A stretch of DNA of 64,000 nucleotides. Source: an uncultured Dehalococcoidia bacterium. Its GTDB lineage: Bacteria > Chloroflexota > Dehalococcoidia > Lucifugimonadales > UBA3495. The notes under the pieces were generated by a model. That model was not told where the DNA came from. It saw nothing but the letters and a program-made list of their open reading frames with translations, and made no database searches. Each line of letters starts with the position of its first letter. Position 1 is the first letter of the stretch. Both the position numbers and the translations under genes were made by a program. Of the stretch, positions 6,107 through 57,078 are shown piece after piece. The stretch lies in contig OX638345.1 of NCBI GenBank assembly GCA_951813535.1, forward strand, positions 509,029-573,028, read 5' to 3'.

Positions 6107-6196
6107 ATGGAGAACAGGCCCCGGAAACAACGGGCCGAGGGCGCAACCAGAAACTCAAAGTACCCAACGACAGTCTCGAAAGGGAGATTTTGTCAC

Positions 6197-9178
6197 ATGA
6201 GTAGAAAAACGAGAAAGCTGATATGGTCAGCGCCCCTGGTGGCGGTGTTAGCCGTCGCCGGCGCCCTGGCCATTTTTGCGGCGCTCTCGCCTCAAGAAGC
6301 GACAGCGCACGAGGCGGTGCTGCACGGGGCCCCCAACCCGGTGACGGGGCTGGATGCCTCCGTGGCCACTGGCAACGATGCCAACGGTCAGCCGGCAGGA
6401 CGCACCCAGATCAACCTGACCTGGATGGCCCCCGAGGCCAGCACCGCGGACATGACGACGGGAGCCGTGAATGCCGGGCTGGCAACCAGCTACCGCATCG
6501 ACTATTCCGACAACACCCGGGTGTGGCGCAATCTGCTGGGCGGCGAGAGCGGCGAAGCCGCTCTGATGGACACCATGGCCGACAGCAACTGCGCGGCTGA
6601 TGCGGCCGACGGCATGCGGTGTTTCACGGACATGACCCTTACGCCGGGGAAACTCCGCCACTACCGGGTGTTCGCCATGAACGACCAGGGCACCAGCCCG
6701 GTATCCATCCAGCCGACTTATGTCACCGCCACGACCAACGACTACACCAGGCCCTCGGCGGCCCGGTTGTTGACGGCGACGACGAGCCTGGTGGACAGCA
6801 TCGTGCTGAACTGGCAGTCTCCCACCGACCTGGGAGGTGCCACGCTCCTCTGGTACTGCATCGCGGTTGGCGCGACCGAAGCCGCCGTACCCGACTTGAC
6901 GGCTGACGCTGCAGCGCCCGACTGTCTCAACGAGACCGAAGCCACCGAAGGCGACGTTGCTGTAGGAGAAGCCACGATAGTGGTACCGGCCGACATGACC
7001 ACGTACACGCAGGGTGAACTGGACGATCCAGCCATCATCTCGCAGTGGTACCGGGTGTACGCCGTTACCGACCGGGACGGCGAGGCGGATACGGCCAATG
7101 ATGCAACTGCCACTCCGGCGGTTACGAACGAGCGCTATATCTCGCTGGCGGCGTCCAACACCGCCAACGGGCGCACCGTGTCGCCGCTGCCTGACGTAGA
7201 CACTGACGTGACGGCCACACCTGATCCCGTCACCAACCTGCGCTATGTGGCCAGCAGGGCGAATGGCGGCACCGACGTCACCCTGAACCTGTACTGGACC
7301 CTGCCGGCAAACTACCCCGATGCCCCTGCGGCGGGTGTGACACCCGACCCGCGCACCTTGTGGCGCATCGAGGTCGAGCGCTGGGACCCCGCCAGCGGCG
7401 ACAATGGCGAATTCGTAACAGTGGCGGCCGAGGGCACACCAGTGAGCCCTGCCCAGTGGACTTCCACTACTAACGATCAAACGTTGACATTGAACACCGC
7501 GGAGCAACTGTTCCAGGTGCGGTACGTCAACGACCCCAATACCACACCGGATGACAGCGATGATGCCGACGGCATCGTCAAGCGGTTCCGTGTGCCGCAA
7601 ACAACTCCTGAGAACTACGAAGCCCAGGATCTGCCCACGATCGCGGTCACCAGTTACACCGACCCCCAGACGGGTCTGCGGTTCAGGCACAACGAGATCA
7701 ACCCGACCACCTGGCTCGACCTGATCTGGACTGCGGACACGCCGGGTGATACGGATAACAACAACACGCCCACGGGCTATGTGATCGATTACACCGAGGC
7801 GGCGGCAATAGACCAACACACCAGGTGGCATTCGTTGCCCAACGCCAGGCGACCCTCCGACCTCGGCGCGACCACGCAGTACACGCACAAGGGCGTGACG
7901 CCAGGGCAGAAGTACACCTACCGAGTGTTCCCCGAGTTCGGGAGCCACAGTGTCTCCAGGTATGACTACCGGTATGGCGTGCCCCGCGTGGAAGAGGCCA
8001 GCTCCAGGGAGGCGGATCTTCCCGGACCGGTCCTGGGCCTGACGGTGGTTGCTAACCCCGACAACCCTCAGACGGAGCTCAAGCTGTCCTGGAACAAGTT
8101 GCCGGACGACCCGATGGGCCATCCGGTGCTGGGCTACCTCGTCGAGGTCGCCAATGACACCGACAACGACATGACGCCTCCGGCTGCAGACGCCACATGG
8201 ACGGGCCTGCCCATCCAGGACGACGACGACACTAACGATGTGGACGAGTCGGAGCCGTGGTCGGTGGACAAAGACACCCTGATGTACACCTACGACGGGG
8301 TAGCCGAGGGGTCTGCATTGACCACTGACGACACGCTGGCCGGCGGCTACGTCCGCTGGTTCCGGGTGATCGCCATCACCGCCGAAAACGACGGTGATGC
8401 TGATACCGGCGGTCAGGCCGTGGATCCGGCCACCGGCGCCGTAGCCGGAAGCCCGTCAACCGGTGAAACGACGCCGAATACGGCAGTTCAGACCAGCGCT
8501 CGTCCGGCGAAGGGAATGACGGACGCCCCTGATGCTCCTGACGACCCATCCCAGGTGATGTCACCGCCGATGCCGGAGGATCTGACCTCCGAGAAGGCCA
8601 GCGACACCAACCTGCTTGAGCCGACGTCCCGGGGCGTTCTGCTGCTGTGGAACGAGCCTGAAACCACAGATGGCATCAACGCCTACGTGGTCCAGCGGAA
8701 GATCGACGACGGTGAGTGGACGCCAATCGCCAGGGTGACTGCCCGCACGTCGTACAGCGACCAACGCGAGTACCGGGACGGCGAAGACCTGCAGTATCGG
8801 GTCGGCTCCCTGGGCGCCTCCACGGTGCCTCCGAGCTACACCGATCCTGTGACGTACCCGACGACGCACCCTGAGGGGCACGCGGTCGTGCTGGGCGCGC
8901 CGACGAACGTGATGGCGTCCTCCGACGCGGCGCGTACGTTGAATCTCACTTGGGAAGGCGGTGAAAACGCTGACCTGTTCGTCCTCGTGGCGTACGAGAT
9001 AGATACGGGGGATATCCAACTGTCGACAGAGCTGGGCACGGCTCGCATGGGCAATGTCACCGGCCTGACTCCCGGGTCCCAGTATCTGGGCCTGGTGATC
9101 GCGGTCATGGGAAGCGGCGCCGACCTGGAGTCGCTCTACGACTACGACAGGACCGACCCGATCACAACGAGCCAGTAA
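6197..9178 (+). CDS. exported fibronectin type III repeat protein
   Basis: 993 residues from ATG 6197, chosen over an upstream in-frame ATG at 6107 because AAGGGAGA lies just before it and a signal peptide follows at once: MSRKTRK, a ~25-residue hydrophobic core, then a probable cleavage before AHE. The mature part is a string of about seven Fn3-like beta-sandwich units starting near residues 46, 185, 340, 493, 608, 807 and 898, each with a Pro-containing start and an L-x-W strand (INLTWMAP, IVLNWQSP, LNLYWTLP, LDLIWTAD, LKLSWNKLP, LLLWNEP, LNLTWEG). It is very acidic, Thr/Asp-rich and lacks a membrane anchor. A cell-surface or secreted adhesion/scaffold role is inferred. The first residues match those of the next gene. 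Confidence 0.85.
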   Translation: MSRKTRKLIWSAPLVAVLAVAGALAIFAALSPQEATAHEAVLHGAPNPVTGLDASVATGNDANGQPAGRTQINLTWMAPEASTADMTTGAVNAGLATSYRIDYSDNTRVWRNLLGGESGEAALMDTMADSNCAADAADGMRCFTDMTLTPGKLRHYRVFAMNDQGTSPVSIQPTYVTATTNDYTRPSAARLLTATTSLVDSIVLNWQSPTDLGGATLLWYCIAVGATEAAVPDLTADAAAPDCLNETEATEGDVAVGEATIVVPADMTTYTQGELDDPAIISQWYRVYAVTDRDGEADTANDATATPAVTNERYISLAASNTANGRTVSPLPDVDTDVTATPDPVTNLRYVASRANGGTDVTLNLYWTLPANYPDAPAAGVTPDPRTLWRIEVERWDPASGDNGEFVTVAAEGTPVSPAQWTSTTNDQTLTLNTAEQLFQVRYVNDPNTTPDDSDDADGIVKRFRVPQTTPENYEAQDLPTIAVTSYTDPQTGLRFRHNEINPTTWLDLIWTADTPGDTDNNNTPTGYVIDYTEAAAIDQHTRWHSLPNARRPSDLGATTQYTHKGVTPGQKYTYRVFPEFGSHSVSRYDYRYGVPRVEEASSREADLPGPVLGLTVVANPDNPQTELKLSWNKLPDDPMGHPVLGYLVEVANDTDNDMTPPAADATWTGLPIQDDDDTNDVDESEPWSVDKDTLMYTYDGVAEGSALTTDDTLAGGYVRWFRVIAITAENDGDADTGGQAVDPATGAVAGSPSTGETTPNTAVQTSARPAKGMTDAPDAPDDPSQVMSPPMPEDLTSEKASDTNLLEPTSRGVLLLWNEPETTDGINAYVVQRKIDDGEWTPIARVTARTSYSDQREYRDGEDLQYRVGSLGASTVPPSYTDPVTYPTTHPEGHAVVLGAPTNVMASSDAARTLNLTWEGGENADLFVLVAYEIDTGDIQLSTELGTARMGNVTGLTPGSQYLGLVIAVMGSGADLESLYDYDRTDPITTSQ

Positions 9179-9286
9179 GACCACGAAAGCGGAGCATGAG
9201 AGTTTCGGGTCTGCCGCCTGGGCGACAGCGCAGACCGGCGGACCCGGGACAGAACGTGAACACAATCTCAAAGGAGATTTCACGAA

Positions 9287-12109
9287 ATGAGCAAGAAAAC
9301 GAGAAAGTACGCTTGGCCGGTGTCGGTGGCAATGGCATTTGCCCTTGTCGCCGCCCTGGCGGCGTTCGTTGTGCTGGCGTCGAGCCCCGGCCCCGCCGCG
9401 GCTCACGACCCGGACACAAACCACAGCGCTGACTGCCCCACTGGAACGGATATCTCTGATATCGCGGATAGGGCATCCCACGACGCGTTGGCCGATACAA
9501 ATGGGGATACCAACGCCGACGGGAGCGATCACACCTGCGCCAGCCCGGGCATGGAACCCGTCACCGAGAATGGCGACGACATGGACGACATGATGGCCGA
9601 CGCCGAGGTCGAGTCCAGTTCCTCCACGGGCAGCGCCACGGTGGAACTCAAGCTGACCATCGAGGAACTCCCGATGGCCGTGGCCGTGGGTGGCTCCATC
9701 GTGCTGTACATCGAGGACGACTTCCAGGAGCCCGATGACATTTCGGCCAGCGACGTCTACTTCGTGGTGTCCAGTCCGGTTGATGTGACCACCGGTAACG
9801 GCGGGCGGGTGTACTCCACCGTCGACCCGGTGATCAGCACCAGCGACTACTTCACCCCGGACAAGGATGACATCGCCATCCAGATCTTCGTGCCCGACCT
9901 GTGCCCGAACGCCACCGACAACTGCGAGGGCGATGACGGCCTCAACATGGGCGACACCGTCTCCGTGGTCGTCACCAAGGGCGCGGGCATCAAGAACCCG
10001 TCGGAAGCGGGCACCCACAGCACCGGCTACAACGTGCTGGCCGCCACGCACACCGGCTCGGTTCCCGGCACCCCCATCAACACGGATATCCTCCCTACCG
10101 TTCGCAAGATAGGCTTGCACGACGTGGACAACAAGCGCGGCTACGAGCAGACCGTCACCGGCACCGGCTTCAAGGACGGGACCACTGCGGCCGTCTACGT
10201 GCTGCACATCCCGGGCACCGAACCGGGTAACAGTTATCGTAACGCGTCCCTTTGGAACGCTCTGAATTGCGAGGAAATGGTTGCGGCGGTCCCGGCGGAT
10301 GCCGAGGGTAACACCGGCATGGCGAACATGCAGAATCCGTATTGCGCCATGTATAACGACGATTTCCCCGAAGCCCAGAAGGCAGTCGTGCGCGCGCTTG
10401 ACTTCAGCACGGGCGCGGCCGAAGCGCAGTTGTGCGCGGCCATCATCCGCGACGGCACCAACGTTGGCGGCGCGCTGGTGGGCAGCGACGACAAGGTCGC
10501 CGTGACTTTCGAAACCACGGCTCCCACCTTCGGCCCCGGCCAGACCAACCACATCTGCATGGTCGACGGCACGGGCGGGTCCTCTTACACTGACGTTGAG
10601 GACTTCAACCTGCAGGCCTCCATCAAGGTGGTCCCCAGCAGCGTAGCCACCGGTGACACGGTGAACGTGTTCGCCCAGGACTACTCCAACGAGGGAGGCA
10701 TCTTCAACAGGCTGATCATCGCGGGATCCGAGATGGCGCCGAACGACGCCTACCTGTTCCACCCCATGTCCAACATGCGTCATCTGGACTTCGTCACCGA
10801 CACCGAGAGCATCTCGCGCGGCGCCGGATCGGTCACTTTTGAGGTGCCCGGCGGCTATCGCGGCGTGCTGAAGATCGAAGGCGAGTGGTGCACGGGTTCC
10901 GGCGACGATCAGGACTGCATCATCAAGGACACCAAGATCACCATTGCCGGCGCTGAACTCAACGCCAGCAAGACCGCGGTGCTGCCCAACGACACCATCA
11001 CCATCACCGGTAACGGTTTCGGAACGCAGACCTGCATTCCGGTCCAGAACGTCACCCTGGACGACGTGCCGGTAATGGTCCACGACGACTCCACCGCCGA
11101 CCGCTGCTCGACCAGCATGGGCAAGGGCGTGGAAGTTTCCAACTCCGGTCAGTTCGTGGCCACGGTCATCCTGTGGCCGGTGGATGATGATTCCACCAAC
11201 CCGACGCTGATCCCGGGCACCCATGAGTTGAATGTCGAGGACAACGACGAGTACGAGGCTGACATCAGCCTGACCATCGCCGAGCCGACGATCATGGTTA
11301 GCCCGGACATCGCTGGGCCGCGGGACTACATCACCGTCACCGGTGCAAACTGGCCCGTGGACAACCTGGATAACACGCTGAGCCGGCCCATCACCGTCGT
11401 GGTGGAGGACTACCAGGCTGGTCGCTCGTACCCGTTGTACGCCGACAGCGTGGGCCGCATCTCTGCGGAGCACCGGATCCACCGGAAGGTGGCGATCCCT
11501 GACACCGTTCAGGTCAAGGCCAGCTACGACGGTGGCAAGGTGGTGAAGATCGGGTCCTTCGCGGTTCCGGCGTCCACCATCACGGTCACCCCCAATGAAG
11601 GCCAGCCTGGCGACATGGTCACCCTGACCTCCGGCAACATGCCCGTGTACACCGAGGCCGACTACGTCGAAATCGGCGGCACCACCTACACCGACCCCGG
11701 TGTCAACACTGACCGCGACGGGAACATCACCGTCGAGGACGTGCTGATCCCCGGTCTAGACCCCGGCGTCTACAGCGTTGTCATCAACGTTGACGGCACC
11801 ATCGCCATTGGCGAGATCAACGTCCTGGCCGAGTCCTCGGCCGCCGGCGCCCCCGCTGAGCTCCCCGGAGCCGTGGAGAACCTGGGCGACAGCCTGGTTG
11901 CCATCTTCCACTTCGACGACGTGGGCAAGAGCTGGTCGTTCTACGACCCGCGCCCCGAGTTCGCCGATCTCAACACCCTGACCGAAATGGTCAACGGTGA
12001 GGCCTACTGGATCCTGGTCAGCGAGACCGTGGAAGACGTGGTCCTGAACAACAAGGTCCGCAGTCTCACCTGCCGTGGCGACGACTGCTGGAACCTGGAG
12101 GTCTGGTAG
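9287..12109 (+). CDS. exported protein with IPT/TIG-like repeats
   Basis: 940 residues. The signal peptide MSKKTRK...AAAHD closely resembles that of the preceding gene, and the ribosome-binding region (AAAGGAGA) is also alike. Beta-sandwich repeats of IPT/TIG type start near residues 273, 445, 556, 668 and 764, with phrases such as TVTGTGFKDGT, TITITGNGFG, ITVTGANWP and MVTLTSGNMP. The C-terminal ~80 residues (from LPGAVENLGDSLVAIFHF, with WSFYDPRPEF and GEAYWILV) form a separate domain that, from memory, closes many Chloroflexota exported proteins. Acidic, with Cys pairs in the mature part, no transmembrane anchor. Probably a cell-envelope or surface-layer-type protein; the function is not shown. 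Confidence 0.8.
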   Translation: MSKKTRKYAWPVSVAMAFALVAALAAFVVLASSPGPAAAHDPDTNHSADCPTGTDISDIADRASHDALADTNGDTNADGSDHTCASPGMEPVTENGDDMDDMMADAEVESSSSTGSATVELKLTIEELPMAVAVGGSIVLYIEDDFQEPDDISASDVYFVVSSPVDVTTGNGGRVYSTVDPVISTSDYFTPDKDDIAIQIFVPDLCPNATDNCEGDDGLNMGDTVSVVVTKGAGIKNPSEAGTHSTGYNVLAATHTGSVPGTPINTDILPTVRKIGLHDVDNKRGYEQTVTGTGFKDGTTAAVYVLHIPGTEPGNSYRNASLWNALNCEEMVAAVPADAEGNTGMANMQNPYCAMYNDDFPEAQKAVVRALDFSTGAAEAQLCAAIIRDGTNVGGALVGSDDKVAVTFETTAPTFGPGQTNHICMVDGTGGSSYTDVEDFNLQASIKVVPSSVATGDTVNVFAQDYSNEGGIFNRLIIAGSEMAPNDAYLFHPMSNMRHLDFVTDTESISRGAGSVTFEVPGGYRGVLKIEGEWCTGSGDDQDCIIKDTKITIAGAELNASKTAVLPNDTITITGNGFGTQTCIPVQNVTLDDVPVMVHDDSTADRCSTSMGKGVEVSNSGQFVATVILWPVDDDSTNPTLIPGTHELNVEDNDEYEADISLTIAEPTIMVSPDIAGPRDYITVTGANWPVDNLDNTLSRPITVVVEDYQAGRSYPLYADSVGRISAEHRIHRKVAIPDTVQVKASYDGGKVVKIGSFAVPASTITVTPNEGQPGDMVTLTSGNMPVYTEADYVEIGGTTYTDPGVNTDRDGNITVEDVLIPGLDPGVYSVVINVDGTIAIGEINVLAESSAAGAPAELPGAVENLGDSLVAIFHFDDVGKSWSFYDPRPEFADLNTLTEMVNGEAYWILVSETVEDVVLNNKVRSLTCRGDDCWNLEVW

Positions 12110-12229
12110 GCCGTCGTCCCCGCGAGGGAGCGACAGTCAACCGACTGAATGAGTGTCCAGTAAAGCGCCCCCGCCTCCGTGGCCTGTGCTGCGGGGGCGG
12201 GGGGACCACTCCAAGCAGGAGCAAATGAG

Positions 12230-12910
12230 ATGAAGAGAATTGGAGCAATGGCGGCGGTGGCGTTGATTGCCCTGCTGGTCGCGTTGCCCCTGGGCCTCGT
12301 TGCGGCTCAGGGAGACGCGCCGCGGGCCAACGTGCCCCCCGCGTTCATATTCGGCTACGCCATGGCCGACGGCCTCCCGGTTCCCGAGGGGACCATGGTG
12401 GTGGCCATGGCTGGCGACGAGAAGATCGGTTCCGCCACGACCATGATGGGGGGCCACTACGAGCTGCAGCTCATGCAGCCCATGGACATGGACTCGATGG
12501 TCACCTTCATGATCGGTGAGCGCATGGTGGACTACGAGTACACCTGGATGAGCGGCGACCGGATGATCATGGACCTGTCCGCCGACCTGGCGGGTCAGGA
12601 CGGGGCCATGGGTCCCACCGGACCTTCCGGCGCGGCGGGCCCTCCGGGCGTCCCCGGACCCGCCGGCTCCGACGGCGCTGACGGCCGCGATGGCCGCGAC
12701 GGCCCCGCTGGCGCAGACGGCCCTCCGGGCGCCCAGGGCGAGCAGGGCATCGCCGGACCTCCGGGCCCTCCGGGTCCGCAGGGTCCGCAGGGCGAGATCG
12801 GTGCGGCCGGCGGCGCCGGTTCCATGGGCATCATCGCGCTGATCGTGGCCATCGTGGCCGTGATAATCGCGATCGTGGCCATCGTCATGGGACGGCGCAC
12901 CACCGCGTAG
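12230..12910 (+). CDS. collagen-like surface protein with C-terminal membrane anchor
   Basis: 226 residues from ATG 12230 (AGGAG eight bases upstream; the frame is open to 12179 but only here does a signal peptide begin, [16 protein letters not shown]...). After a Met-rich globular part of ~90 residues comes about 25 Gly-X-Y triplets ([19 protein letters not shown]... and following), able to form a collagen triple helix, and then a single C-terminal transmembrane helix ([20 protein letters not shown]) with a short basic tail. Topology: exported, trimeric stalk anchored at its C-terminus. It follows the two other exported proteins and ends at a strong terminator. Confidence 0.85.
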
Positions 12911-16675: not shown

Positions 16676-18997
16676 TCACCCGCCAGGGGGCGCCGCTATG
16701 CTGAAGAAATTGTCACTGAAATCTTCAGGGTCGTCTGTGCTATCCGGATACAAGATGAAGGTAGGAATCATCTCGCGGTCGCGCGCGTTCTCACACGGAA
16801 ACTGCTGCGGGTGAGTTGCATCCTGATCCAAGCAGACATATTCATCGGGGCTATCCACATGCTTGACTACTCTGGCTTCGTAACACCACCCAGGCTCCAG
16901 CGGGATCGCCTCTTTGCTATTGACGATGATCTTGACGAACTTCAGCTGTTTGCCATACAAGCTCGGAACCCATGCGTCCCATGATGCCAGACGGAACTTG
17001 CGTGAACTGGGCAGGTTGCCTAGGTAGCAACCCTGCAGCGAGACTCGTTTCCCTTTTTCCAAGTCCTTAACGACAGAGTGGGTCGGGTTCGGGTAGAGTC
17101 TTTCCGCCGGCGTCAGAGTGGGAGTGGACGGGGGTAATGTGGCTGTCGGAGTCGGTGGTAGGGTAGCGGAGGGCACCGGTGTATGGGTGGGCTCCGAAGT
17201 TGACACAGCGGAACGGACCCGGGTAGGTAAAGCGACGGAAGCGGTTGTCGTGGACACGGGTTTCGTTAGGGCCAATATGAACCTTTCCCCGGGGTTGATG
17301 CCTCCGACGATAGCATTGCCTTCGGGGGGCAGATTGAAATTGATGAAGTTCCCGCCACTGGATTTGACATTGCTGACCACCGGAAAGTGGATGCTGCCTT
17401 CGGCGGTTTGCACCCATACCATTAGGTCGTTTCCTTCGCCATCTGCTCCGAAGTAGTCCTTCAACGCCAGAGCCGCGCTATCGTTAAGTCGGAGGGTGTT
17501 GCCATCCTCCAAATACGTGATGCGCACTATCGCCGTGCCGTCCGGGCCAATATCGGTCTCGCCTTCCACCAAAGAGCCCGACTCGAGCCATTTCGAGCCG
17601 GCGGCGCTGTAGAGGGCCGGTTGGTCTCCTGCATTCCCAGCAGCGAACAGTGCCAACATTTGGACCGTCAGGCCTGTCGTCGCAAAGTCAGTCAGCGTCA
17701 ATGTCTGCTGCATGGGCGGTGGCCGACCAGTTGGGACAACAGTCGTTTCTGGCGCCGGCGGAGTTACAACGATGATGATAGGCGTTGGCGCTGGTGCCGG
17801 GATATCGGTGGGAGCGATAGTTGGCGTCGTAGTGGGCGTAGGTGAGGGAAGCACCACAGGCACGGCAACGGGCGCAGACTGGGCTGTCGCCGAACCATTG
17901 GGCCCTGTGCCACCGGTTATCATCCAGATACCCGCTGCCAACAGCGGTATCAGGACAACCAGGGTAATCAGCCACCGTCGTTGCCACGGATCGGTTCGGC
18001 TTGGGGACGGCGCAGACACCGCGGTCGGATTGGGTGATAACGCTGCCACCCATTCGTCCACCGTAGGCCTACCCAGCCGTTGAGAGTCCTTCCGATCGAA
18101 GCAGCGGAGAAACAGCCGCCGCAGGTCGTCAGACAATTCGTTCCAGGCTTTATCCTGTGGTTCGGTGGTCGTGGCGTTGCTACTTGCGCTGCGCGGAAAC
18201 CTCCAGTTCGCTATCCTGTCTCCCAGCTCGGAGTAGCAGGGATCAGTGCCGTTGTAGGGATGATTTCCATTATTGAACAGGAGGAAGATCAGGACGGCTA
18301 GGCCAAAACAATCGTTGTTCGGAGTGCGGTTGTCCTGCTTCCCCTGTTGTTCCGGAGCTTGGAAATCAGGCATACCCAAGTTGTTAGAGAATGTCTTGCG
18401 GTCGCGAGTGGTGAACCCGAGAGAGTCGCAATCGAGAATAGCGACTTCGTCAGTGCGGTTGATCAAAAAGTTCTTCGGATTAACGTCGCCGATGACATAT
18501 CCGGCATCGTGAAGGGCTTTGAAGGCGAGGGCGAGGCGGAAGGCCATTCGCTGCCGGTTGTCCGTTCTCAGCTCACGGCCCTGCTGTCTCTCGGTGCTCC
18601 CCGCCACGGAAGGGTTGTAGTAGTGAATGGGTTGTGTCCATTGTTTCGAATCCAAGCGGCGCATTGTGTAGCCGACGATAACACCTTCGTGCCTGACAGG
18701 CTGCACGGGCCAGATCACTTGCCAGGTGGCTGACGGATCAGGCTCCACCGGATTAGCCACCATATAACGGATCTTTTCGTCGGCATCCGTCGGCTCCTTA
18801 CCGAAGTGCCAAATCTTCACGACCAGGTCATTTCGGCCTTGCACCGCATACACCCAGCCTTCGCCGCCCTTGCCGATCTCGCTGTTGGGATCAATCTTCC
18901 CGTCTCGCCCAGGCAGTTTAATTGGCACAATCAACTCGTCGGCTTCATCGTAAAATGGGCCATCGATTGGTCTTGGTGTTGGCGCTTGAGAAGCCAT
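16676..18997 (-). CDS. membrane-spanning serine/threonine protein kinase of the TerY-P (YegI-like) type
   Basis: 773 residues. Kinase domain ~40-320: Gly-rich loop GKGGEGWVY (42-50), Lys 61 in VVKIW, catalytic loop GDVNPKNFLI (Asp171, Asn176) in place of HRDLKPEN, DCD (189-191) in place of DFG, and APE at 214-216. The GDxN and D-x-D variants are as I recall them for YegI-type kinases found with PP2C and vWA partners. Then one transmembrane helix (~342-360), a Pro/Thr-rich stalk, a beta-rich domain (~430-590), a second stalk and a C-terminal Cys-containing domain. The outside half may sense a signal. It is the last gene of the PP2C-vWA-vWA-kinase run. No strong ribosome-binding site precedes the ATG. 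Confidence 0.8.
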   Translation of the reverse strand: MASQAPTPRPIDGPFYDEADELIVPIKLPGRDGKIDPNSEIGKGGEGWVYAVQGRNDLVVKIWHFGKEPTDADEKIRYMVANPVEPDPSATWQVIWPVQPVRHEGVIVGYTMRRLDSKQWTQPIHYYNPSVAGSTERQQGRELRTDNRQRMAFRLALAFKALHDAGYVIGDVNPKNFLINRTDEVAILDCDSLGFTTRDRKTFSNNLGMPDFQAPEQQGKQDNRTPNNDCFGLAVLIFLLFNNGNHPYNGTDPCYSELGDRIANWRFPRSASSNATTTEPQDKAWNELSDDLRRLFLRCFDRKDSQRLGRPTVDEWVAALSPNPTAVSAPSPSRTDPWQRRWLITLVVLIPLLAAGIWMITGGTGPNGSATAQSAPVAVPVVLPSPTPTTTPTIAPTDIPAPAPTPIIIVVTPPAPETTVVPTGRPPPMQQTLTLTDFATTGLTVQMLALFAAGNAGDQPALYSAAGSKWLESGSLVEGETDIGPDGTAIVRITYLEDGNTLRLNDSAALALKDYFGADGEGNDLMVWVQTAEGSIHFPVVSNVKSSGGNFINFNLPPEGNAIVGGINPGERFILALTKPVSTTTASVALPTRVRSAVSTSEPTHTPVPSATLPPTPTATLPPSTPTLTPAERLYPNPTHSVVKDLEKGKRVSLQGCYLGNLPSSRKFRLASWDAWVPSLYGKQLKFVKIIVNSKEAIPLEPGWCYEARVVKHVDSPDEYVCLDQDATHPQQFPCENARDREMIPTFILYPDSTDDPEDFSDNFFSIAAPPGG

Positions 18998-19037
18998 CGG
19001 TAGTTGCGCCTGCCATCACGCATGACGGAGTATTGTT

Positions 19038-19748
19038 CTAGATCTCTAAATACTCTGGAGAAGGCAGACGCACACCCTCACCGGGCTGCGAATGTGATAC
19101 TGCGGCCGCTGAACGGGACAACCACACGATGGAACTGGTCAGTTGTTCCATGTTGGTCAGTTCCACTGGCGGGCGTTGGGGTGGGGCAAGTCCGGTTAGC
19201 TGGCTCATGTCGGTTCGACGCGCCGAGTCGCGGACCAGGAATGAGAAAAAGGCCACTTGCTTCGCCTCTTCGGCTTTGGCCAGGCGCACCGCGGCTTGTT
19301 CCAGGTCCGCGTTACTATCGTGCTCCGGGATCCCGTCGGTCAGGAAGTAGGCCAGGCTTCGGTAATAGGCGATGCCGCCGTCGCGGTAGCTCTGCTTGCG
19401 GGCAGCGATAGTGTCCAATGCCAAGTTGATGGCCTTGGAAAAATTTGTGCCGCCGTAGGCGGTTAAAACTGGCGGTTCGAATGCGGTGCCGTTGGTGAAG
19501 TCCTGGGCCAACCAGGCCTCGTTGTTGAACGCAATAACCGCTACGTCGGCCCGCAGGGAAGTCAGCGCATCTTCTTGGATAGCGTCTCGAAACTTGGCAA
19601 GGGCATTGTTGACGGTATTAATCCTGACGCCGCCATTAAACCCCATGGAGTCTGATACGTCCAAAATTAGGACGATAGAACAACGCGCTTCCGGATTGTC
19701 AGCGAATTCGACAGTATCATATACGTGCTCTGCATCTTGAATGTCCAT
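19038..19748 (-). CDS. vWA-domain protein, TerY/YegL-like (copy 1)
   Basis: 236 residues, essentially one von Willebrand A domain. The metal-ion-dependent adhesion site is complete: DVSDS (30-34), Thr101 in YGGTNF, and Asp138 in FLTDG. Start ATG has GGAGG seven bases upstream. It lies 40 bases upstream of the kinase and is a tandem paralogue of the next vWA gene (shared FADNPE, LAKFRD.IQED, RADVAVIAFN, DFTNGTAFEPPVLTA, YFLTDG and the C-terminal PGEG.RLPSPEY). In TerY-P systems the vWA protein is thought to be a metal-dependent adaptor or target of the kinase/phosphatase pair. Confidence 0.85.
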   Translation of the reverse strand: MDIQDAEHVYDTVEFADNPEARCSIVLILDVSDSMGFNGGVRINTVNNALAKFRDAIQEDALTSLRADVAVIAFNNEAWLAQDFTNGTAFEPPVLTAYGGTNFSKAINLALDTIAARKQSYRDGGIAYYRSLAYFLTDGIPEHDSNADLEQAAVRLAKAEEAKQVAFFSFLVRDSARRTDMSQLTGLAPPQRPPVELTNMEQLTSSIVWLSRSAAAVSHSQPGEGVRLPSPEYLEI

Positions 19749-19842
19749 TTTGGGTCCTCCGTTGAGATTGGGGTTGTTTCAGACCGTTGAGGCAAAGCAG
19801 ATTTCTTGGCCGCGACGCCCGGGTCCCCCGATGACCGTTCTT

Positions 19843-20718
19843 CTAAAAATTCTGGTATTCAGGCGACGGCAGACGAATGCCCTCGCCGGGCTGGGAGCGG
19901 GAAACGGCGGCTATCGACCGGGATAACCACTCAATGGAGCCAGCTAACTGTTCGAGGTTGGTCAGGATTACCGGTGGGCGCTGCGATGTGACCAGTTGGT
20001 CGAGATAATCTTTAGGAGTTCGGCCCAGCTCCACCAATTTGTCGTAACTGGTGCCAGTAAAGTTGGCTATCCCTTGCAAGTCGATAGTGGAACTGTCTCC
20101 GTGATCATTCAATTCGATGAAACTGTTTACGTCATCTATGCGCATCCCGGTGAGTTTAGAAACATCGGTCGCATCGAATAGCAATTCGAAGTTTTGGATT
20201 ATGAATGAGAAAAAAGCCACGCTTCGGTTTTTTTCCACCTCGGCTAAGCGCATTGCGGCATTGGCCAAATCCGCACGAGCGTCGATAGGGTTACCGTCGG
20301 TGAGAAAATAAGCTAGACTGCGGTAGTGCGCGACGCCGCCCTCACTATAACTCTGCTTTCGGGCCTCGATGAGGTCCAACGCCAGGTTAATCGCCTTGGA
20401 GTAATTGGTGCGACCGTCTGCGGTGAGAACGGGCGGCTCAAATGCGGTGCCGTTGGTGAAATCCTGGACCAACCGAGCCTCATCGTTAAAGGCAATAACC
20501 GCCACGTCAGCTCTCAGGGATGTCGTCGTGTCCTCCTGGATATTGTCTCGAAACTTGGCCAGTGCTTGGTTCACGGTTTTAATAGGAGGACCATCCATGG
20601 AAGCCGAGATGTCCAGGATGAGGACGACGGGGCATCGCGTCTCAGGATTGTCGGCGAACTCGGCGGTGTCGTATACGGCGGGCGAATCGCGCGTATTACC
20701 CGAGTCTTGGATGCTCAT
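19843..20718 (-). CDS. vWA-domain protein, TerY/YegL-like (copy 2, with insertion)
   Basis: 291 residues, paralogue of the vWA gene that follows. MIDAS residues: DISAS (36-40), Thr104 in DGRTNYS, Asp141 in FLTDG. It differs by about 55 extra residues after the fifth strand (IQNFELLFDATDVSKLTG to LGRTPKDYLDQL), which could give it a different partner. AAGGAGG precedes the ATG. Located between the PP2C gene (73-base gap) and copy 1 (94-base gap). The high similarity of N- and C-terminal parts supports local duplication. Confidence 0.85.
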   Translation of the reverse strand: MSIQDSGNTRDSPAVYDTAEFADNPETRCPVVLILDISASMDGPPIKTVNQALAKFRDNIQEDTTTSLRADVAVIAFNDEARLVQDFTNGTAFEPPVLTADGRTNYSKAINLALDLIEARKQSYSEGGVAHYRSLAYFLTDGNPIDARADLANAAMRLAEVEKNRSVAFFSFIIQNFELLFDATDVSKLTGMRIDDVNSFIELNDHGDSSTIDLQGIANFTGTSYDKLVELGRTPKDYLDQLVTSQRPPVILTNLEQLAGSIEWLSRSIAAVSRSQPGEGIRLPSPEYQNF

Positions 20719-20791
20719 ACCTGAACCTCCTTAAAGAACTTTGGCGCGGGTTGCAAGGCAGATGCTATTACAACGTCACTGCGCTATCAAG

Positions 20792-21652
20792 TCAGCTACC
20801 AAGAAAGGCAACGTGCGGATTTCGGGGATTTCTGACCGCGATGGCAATCGTGACATCGTCGGCGGTTCGTTGTTGCACCCGCTCGCCAGTGATGAAGGCG
20901 TGCAGCCTGGTTGAGACGGCTTTCGCGTCCTCCGTTTGCGCCAGGTCGTTCAGCATCGGGTTCCAGAATCCCATGAATGCCTCCCGTTCCGGCATCTTCA
21001 ACGCCAGGTTCTGCAGCCCGTCGGTGATCAGCGCCAGGGCATCGTAGCCCGACCCGTCGGCATGGCCCACCGATGCAATGCGGTGCGGACGGGTGCGGGA
21101 CGTGATGAACGTAGTTTCGTTGGCGTACTCGCCGGTATGGGCGGCGCACAAAGTCCTGGCACGTCCGTTGTCGATGTTGAAGGCAATCACCGCGCCGTCA
21201 CCCACCTGCGCCGCCGTTACCAGCCGGTCGCTGGCGATGGCGACGATCAACGTGGAGGCCAGTTCCCTGGGTTCGATACTTTGCCTCCGGGCGTGACGTA
21301 CCACCTGGTTCTTGGCCTGTTTGACGGCGTTTCGTACCAACGAGGCTGCCAGGTGTTCCAGCAGGGCCGCGGCCGGTCTTTTCTCGATACCGTCGACGAT
21401 CGTGTCGACCGCGGTCGCGACTGCGATGCCGGAACCCTCGTGGGAGCGCGAGGCCGAGCCTGCTCCGTCAGCAACGGCCATCACCACGACCGGGCCGTTG
21501 CCGATTTCAACCGACCGGTGGGCAACCGCGTCCTGGTTGCCCACGTTGTCCCTGAGATGAGATGACCCGACAGCCGTGGCCGCTGCTATGCGCCAACCAT
21601 GTCTACCTGGTCCTCTGATACCCATTCGTATCATCCCGTTCAGGATTGTCAC
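20792..21652 (-). CDS. PP2C-family serine/threonine phosphatase (TerY-P set)
   Basis: 286 residues from a GTG at 21652; later in-frame ATGs (residues 7 and 10) are equally possible. PP2C motifs with metal-binding acids: NQDAVAH (Asp41), AVADGAGSA (Asp62), LASTLIVAI, GDGAV (Asp152), LITDGL (Asp211) and TADDVTIAI near 264. These are the two-metal centre residues of PPM phosphatases, so it should be active, presumably removing phosphate added by the kinase three genes downstream. It is the first gene of the set. GC content of the whole set looks lower than its neighbours, which would fit horizontal transfer. Confidence 0.85.
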   Translation of the reverse strand: MTILNGMIRMGIRGPGRHGWRIAAATAVGSSHLRDNVGNQDAVAHRSVEIGNGPVVVMAVADGAGSASRSHEGSGIAVATAVDTIVDGIEKRPAAALLEHLAASLVRNAVKQAKNQVVRHARRQSIEPRELASTLIVAIASDRLVTAAQVGDGAVIAFNIDNGRARTLCAAHTGEYANETTFITSRTRPHRIASVGHADGSGYDALALITDGLQNLALKMPEREAFMGFWNPMLNDLAQTEDAKAVSTRLHAFITGERVQQRTADDVTIAIAVRNPRNPHVAFLGS

Positions 21653-52635: not shown

Positions 52636-53733
52636 TTACGCCGCTGCCTGGTAGACCTCCAGCAGCGCCGGGTTCACGCGGCCGTTCTCGATGCGGTCGT
52701 CGAAGCCACAGGACTTCAACCGCTGGAAGTATTCCTTGACCTGCCGCTGGCGGATGGCGGCCAGGATCTTCTGGCCCTCGTCGGCCTTGTCCGCGCCGCC
52801 GCCCAGCAGGATGGCCAGCGACTCGGCGGTCAGGTTGGCGCTGCGGGCCGCGGGGTTCTCGCCGCCGTTGCCCGTGGCCTGCCGATCCTCAGCCTCGTCG
52901 AGGTAGGCATGGACCTCTTCCCGCCGTTCCGGCACGCACTCGTTCATGTAGCGGGCGTGCAGCACGCCGAAGGCCACGTGACGCGCCTCGTCCTGGGCCG
53001 CTCGCCGGTAGATGGCCTTCTCGGCGTCGTTGTACGCCATGAGTTCGCCCAGGCGGAACAGGGTCAGCACGTTGCCCTCGCCGACGATGTGCAGCCGGCT
53101 GGAAAGCTCGGTGAACTCGCGGGCGTTGTCGGTGCTGCCGCCAGTCACGTCGCTCACGGAGTCGATCATCCGCATCAGGCCGCCGCCGTTGGCCAGCGCC
53201 CGCTTGCGGAACACTTCCATGTGCCGCGACTCGTCCATCACCTGGGTCAGCAGGAACATCCGCACCTCGTGGTAGTCCGGCGACATCTGCGCGATGAACC
53301 GGCCCGGCACGTCGGCGGCCACGAACTCGACCTGCGCGAAGAAGGTGGCCAACTGGCACTGCGCGGCCTCGATATCATCGGGCAGCGGGCGCAGCGTCTC
53401 CCACGGAATGTCGGTGGCGGAGGACCACTGCCGCGAGACGGCTTCCTGATACAGCTTGGTCAGGTTGAAGCCCCACACTTCCTTCTTGTCACGGAAGGTG
53501 TAAGCGGAGAACTGCGGAACGCCTTCCCGGGGAATCGCGCCGCGGGTCCGCTGGGTCTGGTTGGGCGACTCGTCCAGCAGGTCGCCGGTATATTGCGCCA
53601 GCGTGGGGTCGTGCGCCAATTCGTCCTCAGCGCCGGGGACCTGGTCCTTGATCTGCTGGAGCCACGACAGGCTGAAGCCGTTCTGCAGCGCCTGTTCCAT
53701 CTCGACAGTGGTGCGGTCTTGCAAAGTAGCCAT
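52636..53733 (-). CDS. ferritin-like/di-iron oxidase, metal site intact
   Basis: 365 residues from ATG 53733 (AAGGA six bases upstream). Four-helix ferritin-like domain with a full set of ligands: Glu136, Glu168-x-x-His171 (MDESRH), Glu219 (VGEG) and Glu249-x-x-His252 (QDEARH). This pattern fits di-iron oxygenases/oxidases of the AurF or R2-like-oxidase broad group; the substrate cannot be told. A paralogue lacking the ligands is encoded 0.8 kb downstream, beyond the HigBA genes. Confidence 0.75.
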   Translation of the reverse strand: MATLQDRTTVEMEQALQNGFSLSWLQQIKDQVPGAEDELAHDPTLAQYTGDLLDESPNQTQRTRGAIPREGVPQFSAYTFRDKKEVWGFNLTKLYQEAVSRQWSSATDIPWETLRPLPDDIEAAQCQLATFFAQVEFVAADVPGRFIAQMSPDYHEVRMFLLTQVMDESRHMEVFRKRALANGGGLMRMIDSVSDVTGGSTDNAREFTELSSRLHIVGEGNVLTLFRLGELMAYNDAEKAIYRRAAQDEARHVAFGVLHARYMNECVPERREEVHAYLDEAEDRQATGNGGENPAARSANLTAESLAILLGGGADKADEGQKILAAIRQRQVKEYFQRLKSCGFDDRIENGRVNPALLEVYQAAA

Positions 53734-53884
53734 AGATAGTCCTTCTTCGCCGAGGGCGACGGAATTATGCCCGCAATGTACCTGACGGCGCGGGGAAGCG
53801 TCAAGCGTGGTGTCGTGGGAGTTCGTTGCGGGAATTTGCCTAGCCTGATATTCTCCGTGGTAGATCAAACATTCTATTGAGGCT

Positions 53885-54790
53885 GTGACATTGATTAACG
53901 AAGCAATCCATCCCGAGCGTTCTTGGACGGAGGAAAAGCTACAAATTCTCGAAGGCTACTTGAAGGCCTACACGACCGCACTGAAGAACCGAGATTTTCA
54001 TCTCACGTACGTGGATGCATTTGCTGGCACCGGGTATGTCAGCCGTGACGCAACGCAAAGCCTAGCGACTTGGGGTGATGACCTTGATGACATGTCGAGG
54101 GATGTCTTGCAAGGTTCTACACGACGGGCGATCGCAGTCAACGACAAGCCGTTCGACAGTTTTATATTTGTGGAACAAAACCCTGAACATGCAGCGGCTC
54201 TGCTCAGAATGCAGCACGAATTCGGAGAACGTGACATTAAAGTTGAGCGGGCAGAGGCCAACGGATTTCTACAAATGTGGTGCGATGCCCAAAATCGCCT
54301 ACTCGGGATCCCTTGGGATAAGCCAGGGAACCGCCAGCGTGCCGTCGTGTTCCTCGATCCTTTTGCCACACAAGTCGAATGGCAAACCGTATCGTCCATC
54401 GCAAGAACACAATCCATTGACCTATGGATTTTATTCCCGCTGTCTGCGATCACGAGGATATTGCCTCGCAACCGCCAGCCAGACGAAAGCTATGCTGCAA
54501 CCCTTGATAGGATTTACGGAAGTGACGAATGGCGTACCCTGTATCAAACCAGAGTCCGGCGGACGCTGTTCGGTGATGAATTAGAGACCATTCGTGCCGA
54601 GCAAGAGGCTATTGTGCAGCTATATTTGGAAAGGCTGAGTTCCGTTTTCGGCGCGGTTTCACCATCACCAAAATGGTTTAATAATTCGCGCAATTCTCCG
54701 CTGTTTGCGTTCATGTTCGCTGCAGCCAACCCAGGTCGCGGTGGTCGGATAGCTCTCGACATCGCCAACCACCTGTTGAGAAATTGGTAA
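53885..54790 (+). CDS. tcmP: three-Cys-motif partner protein TcmP
   Basis: 301 residues from GTG 53885 (a TTG two codons on has better GAGG spacing). Matches, from memory, the 'three-Cys-motif partner' family: an N-terminal WTEEKLQILEGYLKAYTTALK, a methyltransferase-like DAFAGTGYV loop and a later FLDPFATQVEW acidic motif, suggesting a Rossmann-type AdoMet enzyme. It is always described next to a three-Cys-motif (Gp37/Gp68-like, DUF5131) protein, as here three bases downstream. Its GC content is visibly lower than the neighbourhood, a sign of transfer. Function unknown. Confidence 0.8.
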   Translation: MTLINEAIHPERSWTEEKLQILEGYLKAYTTALKNRDFHLTYVDAFAGTGYVSRDATQSLATWGDDLDDMSRDVLQGSTRRAIAVNDKPFDSFIFVEQNPEHAAALLRMQHEFGERDIKVERAEANGFLQMWCDAQNRLLGIPWDKPGNRQRAVVFLDPFATQVEWQTVSSIARTQSIDLWILFPLSAITRILPRNRQPDESYAATLDRIYGSDEWRTLYQTRVRRTLFGDELETIRAEQEAIVQLYLERLSSVFGAVSPSPKWFNNSRNSPLFAFMFAAANPGRGGRIALDIANHLLRNW

Positions 54791-54793
54791 CCC

Positions 54794-55528
54794 ATGGCAG
54801 CATCAAAAATCGAGTGGACCGACGCCACCTGGAACCCGGTGACTGGCTGCAACAAGATCAGCCCGGGTTGCAAGAACTGCTACGCTGAGCGCCTTTCCAA
54901 GCGGCTCAAGGCCACCGGAATGGAGAAATACCGGAACGGCTTCGACGTGACCCTGCACCCTGACACGCTGGAAATTCCCCTGCGCTGGCGTAAGCCCCGC
55001 TCCATCTTCGTCAATTCAATGAGCGACCTTTTTCATGACGAGGTGCCCGACGAGTTCATCGCCCAGGTTTTCGACGTGATGATCCGCGCCCACTGGCATC
55101 GCTATCAGGTTCTCACCAAGCGCCCGGAACGTGCGGCCAGCTTGAGCTCGCAGCTACCGTGGCCTACCCAGGTCTGGATGGGCGCCAGCGTGGAATCGCA
55201 GGACTACGCCCACCGGATTGACCTGCTGCGCGACACCGACGCGGCCATCAAATTCCTCTCGCTGGAACCGTTGCTCGGCCCCTTGCCCAACCTGGATCTC
55301 TCGGGTATCGATTGGGTTATCGTGGGCGGCGAATCCGGCCCGGGAGCGCGGCCTATGGAGGGTGATTGGGCCCGTGACATTCGCGACCAGTGCAAAGAGG
55401 CGGGCGTCGCTTTCCACTTCAAGCAATGGGGTGGTGTGTTCAAGAAACGCCACGGCCGGGTGCTCGACGGCAGAACTTGGGATGAAATGCCGCTGTTACA
55501 ATCAGAACGGATGGATACAGGGGAGTAA
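54794..55528 (+). CDS. phage Gp37/Gp68-like (DUF5131) three-Cys-motif protein
   Basis: 244 residues, partner of TcmP. N-terminal [20 protein letters not shown] with Cys19, Cys26 and Cys29 (Cx6CxxC), the cluster-binding-like motif of the family and reminiscent of radical-AdoMet or iron-sulfur proteins. Further family blocks: [65 protein letters not shown], and FHFKQWGG. Full length. Ends 16 bases before the left end of the insertion sequence. Confidence 0.85.
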
Positions 55529-55544
55529 CCATTATGGATTGGCA

Positions 55545-55560
55545 AGCTGGACTTTGTACA
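55545..55560 (+). repeat. IS outer left inverted repeat
   Basis: AGCTGGACTTTGTACA; pairs with 57173-57188. Confidence 0.7.
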
Positions 55561-55614
55561 TTGGGCCGATGAGTGAGAAGGCCCCGCCCAGCTGGACGCA
55601 TTTTTCGGCCAGGA

Positions 55615-55654
55615 AGTTTTCGAATGTCAGCACTCAGCGCTCGACTTTGTACAA
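55615..55654 (+). repeat. IS inner left inverted repeat
   Basis: About 40 bp, starting AGTTTTCGAATGT and ending CGCTCGACTTTGTACAA. It pairs with 57079-57118 with few mismatches. Confidence 0.8.
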
Positions 55655-55713
55655 AAACTAGAAAAGTTATAAGGACAGGGTAAGCTTGACCAAATCACCA
55701 CAAGAGGTCAAGC

Positions 55714-57078
55714 ATGTCCTCCCTGCCCACCGTCATTGTAACCGTGCTGTTCCCCTTTGAGCACCTGTTCGACCGCAGGACCTGGCGCAAGGCCCAACTC
55801 CTGGTGGTGGGTGCGATCCTTTCTCCTGGCAAGCGCACGGTATCGTCCGCGCTGAGCATCCTGGGGATTGGCCAGAGCGGAGACTTCGCCGTCTTTCACC
55901 AGGTGCTCAACCGGGCCCGGTGGCAGCCGCTGCAACTGAGCCGGGTGCTGTTGCTGCTGCTGATTGGCCGCTTGGGTTCATCCACCGAGCCCCTGGTGTT
56001 CGGCATCGACGAGACGGTGGAGCGACGCTGGGGCCCAAAGATTGCGGCCAAGGGGAGGTATCGGGACCCGGTGCGCTCCACCGACGACCAGGTGGTGATG
56101 ACTCCCGGACTGCAATGGGTCAGCCTGATGCTGCTGACCCGTATCGGGTGGGCCGGTCGCCACTGGGCGTTGCCCTTCCTGACCGCGCTGGTACCGTCGA
56201 ACCGCTATGACTGGCTCAAGGGTCGTCGCCATAAGCGGTTCACCGACTACGCTCAGCAGATGCTGGACTGTCTGCGTCGGTGGCTGCCGGATCGGGACCT
56301 GGTGGTAGTCTGCGACGGCGGCTACGCCAAGCGTGATTTCCTGCTCCACTGCCAGAGCATGTCCAAGCCTATTGTCGTCATAACCAAACTGCGCAAAGAC
56401 GCGTCCCTGTACCAGCCAGCGCCGCCGCGACGGCCCGGTCAGATCGGCCGGCCCCGGGTGGTGGGAGCGCGACTGCCCAGTCCCACCGCGGTGCTGGACG
56501 ATCCCGCCACCCCATGGACCCCCTGCCGTGCCACCACATCCGACGGCGCCGATCTCATGATCGAGCTGACTTCTGGCGTGGCGCTGTGGTACCGCGGCGG
56601 CTATCCGTCGGTCCATCTGCGCTGGGTCGTGGTCCGGCACCTTGAAGAACCCCTGGGCCCCCACGCTTTGCTGTGCACCGACATCGACGCCGATCCCCTG
56701 CAGATCGTGCAGTGGTATCTGCTGCGTTGGCAGGTCGAGGTGACCTTCGAGGAACTGCGGGCTCACTTGGGCATGGAAACCCAGCGCCAGTGGTCCGAGC
56801 GTGCCATCGCCAGAACCACCCCCGCACTCTTTGGTTTGTTCAGCCTGGTGACCCTGGCGGCGGATGTCTTGATTGAACAGCAGGGCGGCATAGTGCCGCG
56901 GACCACGGCATGGTATGCCAAAACCAACCCCACTTTCGCCGACGCCATCGCCCTGGTCAGGCGACACATCTGGGCACAGCAGGAGACTTTTGCCACGTCC
57001 GAGCCCAACTCTGAACTGATAAAACTCCCACGCGGGACATACCGCAGGATGATCGAGACCCTCGCTTATGCTGCCTGA
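55714..57078 (+). CDS. DDE transposase (IS701/IS4-like)
   Basis: 454 residues. RNase-H-type catalytic acids: Asp in GIDETVERRWGP (~100), Asp in VVVCDGGYAKRD (~207) and Glu in VEVTFEELRAHLGMETQRQWSE (~345, with the Y/W-x-x-R spacing seen in IS4-superfamily enzymes: YLLRWQVEVTFEELR). N-terminal helical domain with SPGKRTVSSALSILGIG typical of IS701. Appears intact, so the element may be active. Confidence 0.9.
   Translation: MSSLPTVIVTVLFPFEHLFDRRTWRKAQLLVVGAILSPGKRTVSSALSILGIGQSGDFAVFHQVLNRARWQPLQLSRVLLLLLIGRLGSSTEPLVFGIDETVERRWGPKIAAKGRYRDPVRSTDDQVVMTPGLQWVSLMLLTRIGWAGRHWALPFLTALVPSNRYDWLKGRRHKRFTDYAQQMLDCLRRWLPDRDLVVVCDGGYAKRDFLLHCQSMSKPIVVITKLRKDASLYQPAPPRRPGQIGRPRVVGARLPSPTAVLDDPATPWTPCRATTSDGADLMIELTSGVALWYRGGYPSVHLRWVVVRHLEEPLGPHALLCTDIDADPLQIVQWYLLRWQVEVTFEELRAHLGMETQRQWSERAIARTTPALFGLFSLVTLAADVLIEQQGGIVPRTTAWYAKTNPTFADAIALVRRHIWAQQETFATSEPNSELIKLPRGTYRRMIETLAYAA

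Follow-up and report, generated by a model that had tools for sequence, protein, structure and literature searches.

The window analysed here, a stretch of 64,000 nucleotides, occupies positions 509,029-573,028 of a 4.38 Mb single-contig genome. Its minus strand carries, in this order, genes for a PP2C-type phosphatase, two vWA proteins (vWA1 and vWA2), and a kinase, separated by intergenic gaps of 73, 94, and 40 bases. All four open reading frames are found at the coordinates and on the strand given in the initial annotation, and their families are confirmed by Pfam. The genes and their relevant parts are the following:

20792..21652, minus strand: PP2C-type Ser/Thr phosphatase, 286 aa read from GTG (Pfam PP2C_2, E 7.1e-42)
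19843..20718, minus strand: vWA1, long vWA protein, MIDAS complete (Pfam VWA_2, 7.7e-9)
19999..20142, minus strand: insertion of vWA1 following predicted core strand 5, approximately residues 193-240 (alignment)
19038..19748, minus strand: vWA2, short vWA protein, MIDAS complete (Pfam VWA, 1.6e-8)
16676..18997, minus strand: Hanks-type kinase, 773 aa (Pfam Pkinase, 7.3e-12; alignment)
18008..18910, minus strand: kinase domain, residues 30-330, with K61, D171, N176, and D189 conserved in the alignment
17915..17971, minus strand: predicted membrane helix, residues 343-361 (hydropathy; N-in/C-out from charge)
17708..17914, minus strand: Pro/Thr-rich stalk, residues 362-430 (62% P/T/S/A)
17222..17710, minus strand: putative outer module D1, residues 430-592, without Pfam match, related to segments of secreted-type proteins
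17081..17221, minus strand: second Pro/Thr-rich linker, residues 593-639 (direct reading of the sequence)
16679..17080, minus strand: putative distal outer domain D2a, residues ~640-773, with Cys 657, 705, 722, and 735 invariant

The GTG read as the start of the PP2C gene probably lies a few codons upstream of the true start, since alignments with most homologues begin only at residue ~16. Motifs of the form AAGGAGG and GGAGG lie ahead of the vWA1 and vWA2 genes. Promoter and terminator consensus matches at the locus are no commoner than in shuffled sequence, and the operon structure therefore rests on the gene spacing.

The locus is flanked by genes for a DUF3500 protein, glutamine synthetase (GS), and SHMT. 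On the plus strand of the window, positions 6107-12109 encode two large proteins of secreted type, of which one has an FN3 domain and the other (9287-12109) matches nothing in Pfam. Positions 12179-12910 encode a collagen-like protein that has Gly-Pro-rich repeats and, at its C-terminal end, a hydrophobic segment, and that is 87-93% identical in relatives. Close relatives sharing the PP2C are MAGs labelled Dehalococcoidia or Chloroflexota bacterium, with isolate names including IRC4, RHO3, and SB0662. We take these isolates, from their names alone, to be sponge-derived; the bacterium carrying the locus is probably a sponge symbiont.

Kinship with known vWA/PP2C/kinase triads

The GDVNPKN and DCD motifs from which the kinase was originally recognized are intact. 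Together with the GKGGEG loop and K61, they (D171 and N176 in the former, D189 in the latter) are invariant or nearly so in an alignment of 21 kinases that includes E. coli YegI. Residues 35-320 match YegI with 30% identity (E 3e-23, tblastn against a plasmid collection), and the genes around this match follow the order yegL-pphC-yegI. Models of NCBIfam detect only weak kinase and phosphatase similarity, far below their cut-offs. Judged by sequence, the four-gene set is a homologue of the known triad of YegL (vWA), PphC-YegK (PP2C), and YegI (kinase), with three homologous components in one cluster; it differs from the E. coli locus in its order, PP2C-vWA-vWA-kinase, and in having two vWA genes. 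According to PMC13232886, YegI is an inner-membrane kinase that autophosphorylates and is dephosphorylated by PphC. Its sequence has hydrophobic stretches between the kinase and helix-hairpin-helix (HhH) regions. YegI and the window kinase share the GDVN..N and DxD motifs and, for the window kinase by prediction, a place at the membrane, and a membrane helix as such, initially regarded as unusual, is not so for this family.

The combination of vWA, PP2C, and Ser/Thr kinase is also that of the TerY-P triad (Anantharaman 2012, via PMC11090510), under which the set was originally filed. The homology and the clustering bear out a TerY-P-like assignment, but the strict label does not hold: the window kinase has no C-terminal zinc ribbon, the four Cys that follow its kinase domain include none arranged as CxxC, and Pfam gives nothing there. 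The locus also differs from TerY-P in having no restriction, tellurite, or defence neighbours. The C..CPWC motif and the HhH of YegI are likewise absent after the kinase domain, as seen in the sequences, the alignment, and Pfam; in their place the window kinase has a single predicted helix followed by a putative outer stalk that carries D1 and D2a. PknB-type PASTA kinases combine a cytoplasmic Hanks kinase, one helix, an extracellular sensor, and a PP2C partner. The window kinase probably follows the same overall plan but belongs to another subfamily (it scores far below the equivalog cut-off), has vWA partners, and contains no PASTA repeats detectable with Pfam or NCBIfam.

Homologues of the kinase are regularly found beside the partner genes, in keeping with the initial reading. 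In the window genome and its relatives, 19 of 20 kinase loci examined have PP2C and vWA genes both adjacent, and at 20 of the best kinase loci from 400 genomes of the phylum both are present at 15, PP2C alone at 3, and neither at 2. Two layouts occur in the genus, namely A (PP2C, one to three vWA, kinase) in eight genomes including the window's own, and B (vWA, PP2C, kinase) in others.

A number of triad kinases share the kinase and the vWA/PP2C neighbourhood but have tails with no sequence relation to D1 or D2a. The window's own genome (G000:C1) carries a second triad near 3.906 Mb, of layout B (L031 8528-13557, about 3.9045-3.9096 Mb), whose kinase bears zinc ribbons and an ADP-ribosylglycohydrolase domain (PF03747, 1.5e-51). 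A NUDIX gene lies beside its vWA gene, and kinase and NUDIX are conserved in G001 and G022, a combination that may tie this triad to ADP-ribose or NAD chemistry. In another Chloroflexota family, the very long tail of a triad kinase (L112 6259-10515) ends in RCC1 repeats (PF25390, 1e-81). Some triad-type kinases (L107 4766-7435, L108 5776-8526, L110 6279-8477), also of another family, contain hydrophobic segments and have long C-terminal parts that match nothing in Pfam; they may be another, independent instance of an outer sensor. On Rhizobium/Sinorhizobium plasmids (L052 1395-8569, L053 1423-8586), the triad lies directly downstream of hxsB, hxsC, and hxsA and is followed by a gene for an SH3-domain protein.

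Both window vWA proteins have a complete MIDAS (DxSxS, T, D) in the alignment, with DISAS in vWA1, where no signal peptide or membrane helix is seen, and DVSDS in vWA2. The duplication and the insertion, described initially as ~55 residues long, are real, the latter comprising about 48 residues (~193-240) of vWA1; the duplication is not unusual, however, since the TerY-P modules of CoCoNuT III-A systems provide a precedent, in which some copies have an incomplete MIDAS (PMC11090510). Triads of the genus contain one to three vWA copies of long, short, and extra classes. Some of the extra copies have lost parts of the MIDAS; missing are the Thr, the Asp, and the final Ser of DxSxS in the one of G012, and the Thr in that of G006. 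In the multiple alignment, the vWA1 insertion is absent from short copies and matches those in long copies of other species. Pairwise, it aligns with the long copies of G004 and G006 at a score reached by 0 of 1000 shuffles, while its similarity to those of G008 and G010 is not significant. Despite this insertion, vWA1 and vWA2 group together in one quick tree, which would fit gene conversion between the neighbouring copies. On the general vWA fold, the insertion is predicted to lie on the MIDAS side.

The probable outer part of the kinase

The helix that had been placed at ~342-360 is found by hydropathy at residues 343-361. It is the sole strong hydrophobic segment of the window kinase (mean hydropathy 2.45), with three K/R in the preceding 15 residues and none after it, a charge distribution that favours the kinase domain being inside. 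The 69 residues that follow make up the stalk, and the proposal of a ~400-residue Pro/Thr-stalked outer part holds in that the C-terminal half is probably extracellular. Relatives of D1 occur in four other genomes of the order, and two of these proteins open with a signal-peptide-like sequence and contain cadherin or FN3-like repeats, which speaks for a location outside the cell. Hydropathy, charge, and the context of D1 agree with a predicted single-pass, N-in/C-out topology.

The stretches after the kinase domain have no Pfam match, and the outer part gives no convincing match among PDB sequences, those of D2a being at chance level (E 0.16-0.9). Neither a zinc ribbon nor an HhH is found in it, and no OB-fold is detected by sequence with Pfam or a PDB sequence search. 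AlphaFold predictions for residues 425-773 of the outer part (three-row alignment) and for D2b, the distal domain of other triad kinases (see below), had pLDDT values of 32 and 40, respectively, and are unusable. The four Cys of D2a are invariant across four species in the alignment, which also counts in favour of the predicted topology. The region between kinase and distal domain varies among orthologues; one helix is present in the window kinase and in that of G013, and the others have three to five by simple hydropathy, a count that is not firm, and different inserted modules.

What sets the locus apart is this anatomy of the kinase, in which a single predicted helix is combined with a Pro/Thr stalk, a module related to segments of secreted proteins, and a four-Cys distal domain. 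The outer domain probably senses something outside the cell. A receptor-like, modular outer part on a kinase of such a triad is not described in the literature searched, which was accessible in part.

Spread of the distal domains and history of the locus

Among 250 genomes of the order, D2a is found in 4 and D2b in 6, always as one copy, in triad kinases, and in this genus only. Each of these ten genomes has one D2 kinase, at one of two chromosomal sites. Treating D2a and D2b as one family was rejected (hhalign probability 5%, with 154 of 1000 shuffles scoring as high).

D2b is shared by layout-A kinases (G008, G010, G006, and G011) and layout-B kinases (G005 and G002). Between the layouts, D2b is 54-64% identical, compared to 36-40% for the kinase domain, 34-38% for PP2C, and 47-51% for vWA; such C-terminal identities are meaningful solely inside the D2a group or the D2b group. 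The D2b triads of G008, G010, G006, G005, and G002 have one flank in common, with an SBP_bac_5 protein and a transporter permease, and dnaX lies on the opposite flank in G006, G005, and G002. Because D2b is common to two lineages at one site while the kinases are only 36-40% alike, outer domains appear to have been exchanged, and the simplest reading of the sequences is an exchange inside the kinase gene.

The window site, with GS or SHMT on one side and DUF3500 on the other, carries a triad in the window genome, G013, G004, G012, and G011. It is free of a triad in G010, G005, G006, and G002, where the spacing between DUF3500 and GS is about 0.8 kb. In G001, a PP2C gene fragment (L129 1240-1395) between DUF3500 and SHMT is the remnant of a triad.

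The GC content is 0.537 in vWA1, 0.563 in vWA2, 0.574 in the kinase gene, and 0.626 in the PP2C gene, against 0.64-0.65 in the flanking SHMT, GS, and DUF3500 genes, and a comparable dip is absent in relatives. (A second dip, 0.56-0.58, lies at 53000-56000 of the window, with an open reading frame at 53885-54790 that has no Pfam match.) The layout-A orthologues of the window kinase domain resemble one another at 63-92%, whereas the window domain matches them at 49-52% identity. Compared with the genus orthologues, vWA2 is an outlier (65-68%) and PP2C is not (69-78%); the flanking genes are mostly 80-96% identical to those of relatives.

The low GC, from which a transfer had been suggested, is thus real and mainly a property of vWA1, vWA2, and the kinase gene, but a recent import of the whole locus is out, since the site is syntenic in G013, G004, G012, and G011. 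A co-import of GS is out as well, as the four relatives lacking a triad here have GS beside DUF3500, and its GC is normal. Low GC and unusual divergence coincide in the vWA-vWA-kinase part and largely spare PP2C; the data would be best explained if a diverged allele had replaced this part at a long-established site, with fast evolution as the alternative. No closer donor for this part is seen in the genomes searched. The joint divergence of vWA2 and kinase, without PP2C, is the pattern that a vWA protein and a kinase matched to each other would be expected to show.

Proposed mechanism and alternatives

On the basis of the homology to YegI and PphC (PMC13232886) and of the kinase anatomy, we propose, with moderate confidence, that the locus is a triad whose kinase became a cell-surface receptor with vWA and PP2C partners. 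The kinase domain would reside in the cytoplasm and one helix would span the membrane, while the Pro/Thr stalk would hold D1 and D2a, with its cysteines, on the outer side, to sense a ligand or a state of the surface. Binding or clustering would alter the kinase activity, and the kinase would then autophosphorylate and phosphorylate vWA1, vWA2, or both, so that a partner would join or leave the metal-dependent MIDAS face of the vWA protein. PP2C would undo the phosphorylation. The extra loop of the long vWA protein, if on the MIDAS side as predicted, could bind a different partner, such that one receptor would have two outputs. No substrate for the vWA protein of such a triad is reported in the literature searched.

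An alternative, which we consider unlikely, is an ordinary triad for intracellular stress, of the YegL/PphC/YegI kind and only tethered to the membrane, the outer part being an anchor or envelope attachment. This would be in line with the membrane-bound YegI, which has no known ligand (PMC13232886), with its hydrophobic stretches between kinase and HhH, and with the similar modules and repeats in secreted proteins of the group. However, the distal domain is conserved, its Cys are invariant, and triad lineages have it in common as one unit; a pure anchor would not have to preserve such a sequence.

The initial annotation had also raised the possibility of a defence switch. TerY-P-like modules with an OB-fold kinase are reported to be antiphage (PMC11090510, citing Gao 2020), and the window kinase domain weakly matches the PD-T4-6, MkoA, and MAD6 models. 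These matches reflect the generic kinase fold only, however, the PADLOC TerY model misses both window vWA proteins, and no nuclease, helicase, or other effector adjoins the locus, whose flanks (DUF3500, GS, SHMT) are metabolic. With, in addition, one receptor triad per genome at syntenic sites, unlike a defence island, no defence link emerges, and a stand-alone anti-phage module is very improbable. Least probable is a decaying, relaxed locus in which low GC and divergence (kinase domain only ~51% identical to orthologues), like the PP2C fragment at the same site in G001, would reflect lost constraint rather than replacement or new function, as the four frames are open, the catalytic and MIDAS residues intact, and the D2a Cys conserved.

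The locus is real and was read correctly in its main points; it is a receptor-like variant of a known triad with a modular outer part. Extending the receptor proposal to the whole genus is more speculative. The genus may, tentatively, use an exchangeable receptor cassette, with one surface-sensing triad per genome at one of two sites, an outer domain swapped between distant triad lineages, and one receptor feeding two or more differently shaped vWA outputs, perhaps reading the surfaces of the sponge host or of neighbours.

The YegL/PphC/YegI and TerY-P triads are widespread, and their sensing input and the role of the vWA protein are an open question for the field. In the present locus, the sensor has apparently moved outside the cell, such that one could produce the outer domain, screen it for ligands, and exchange it between triads to learn how the kinase is switched. 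The occurrence of one outer domain in two triad lineages at one site constitutes a natural domain-swap experiment.
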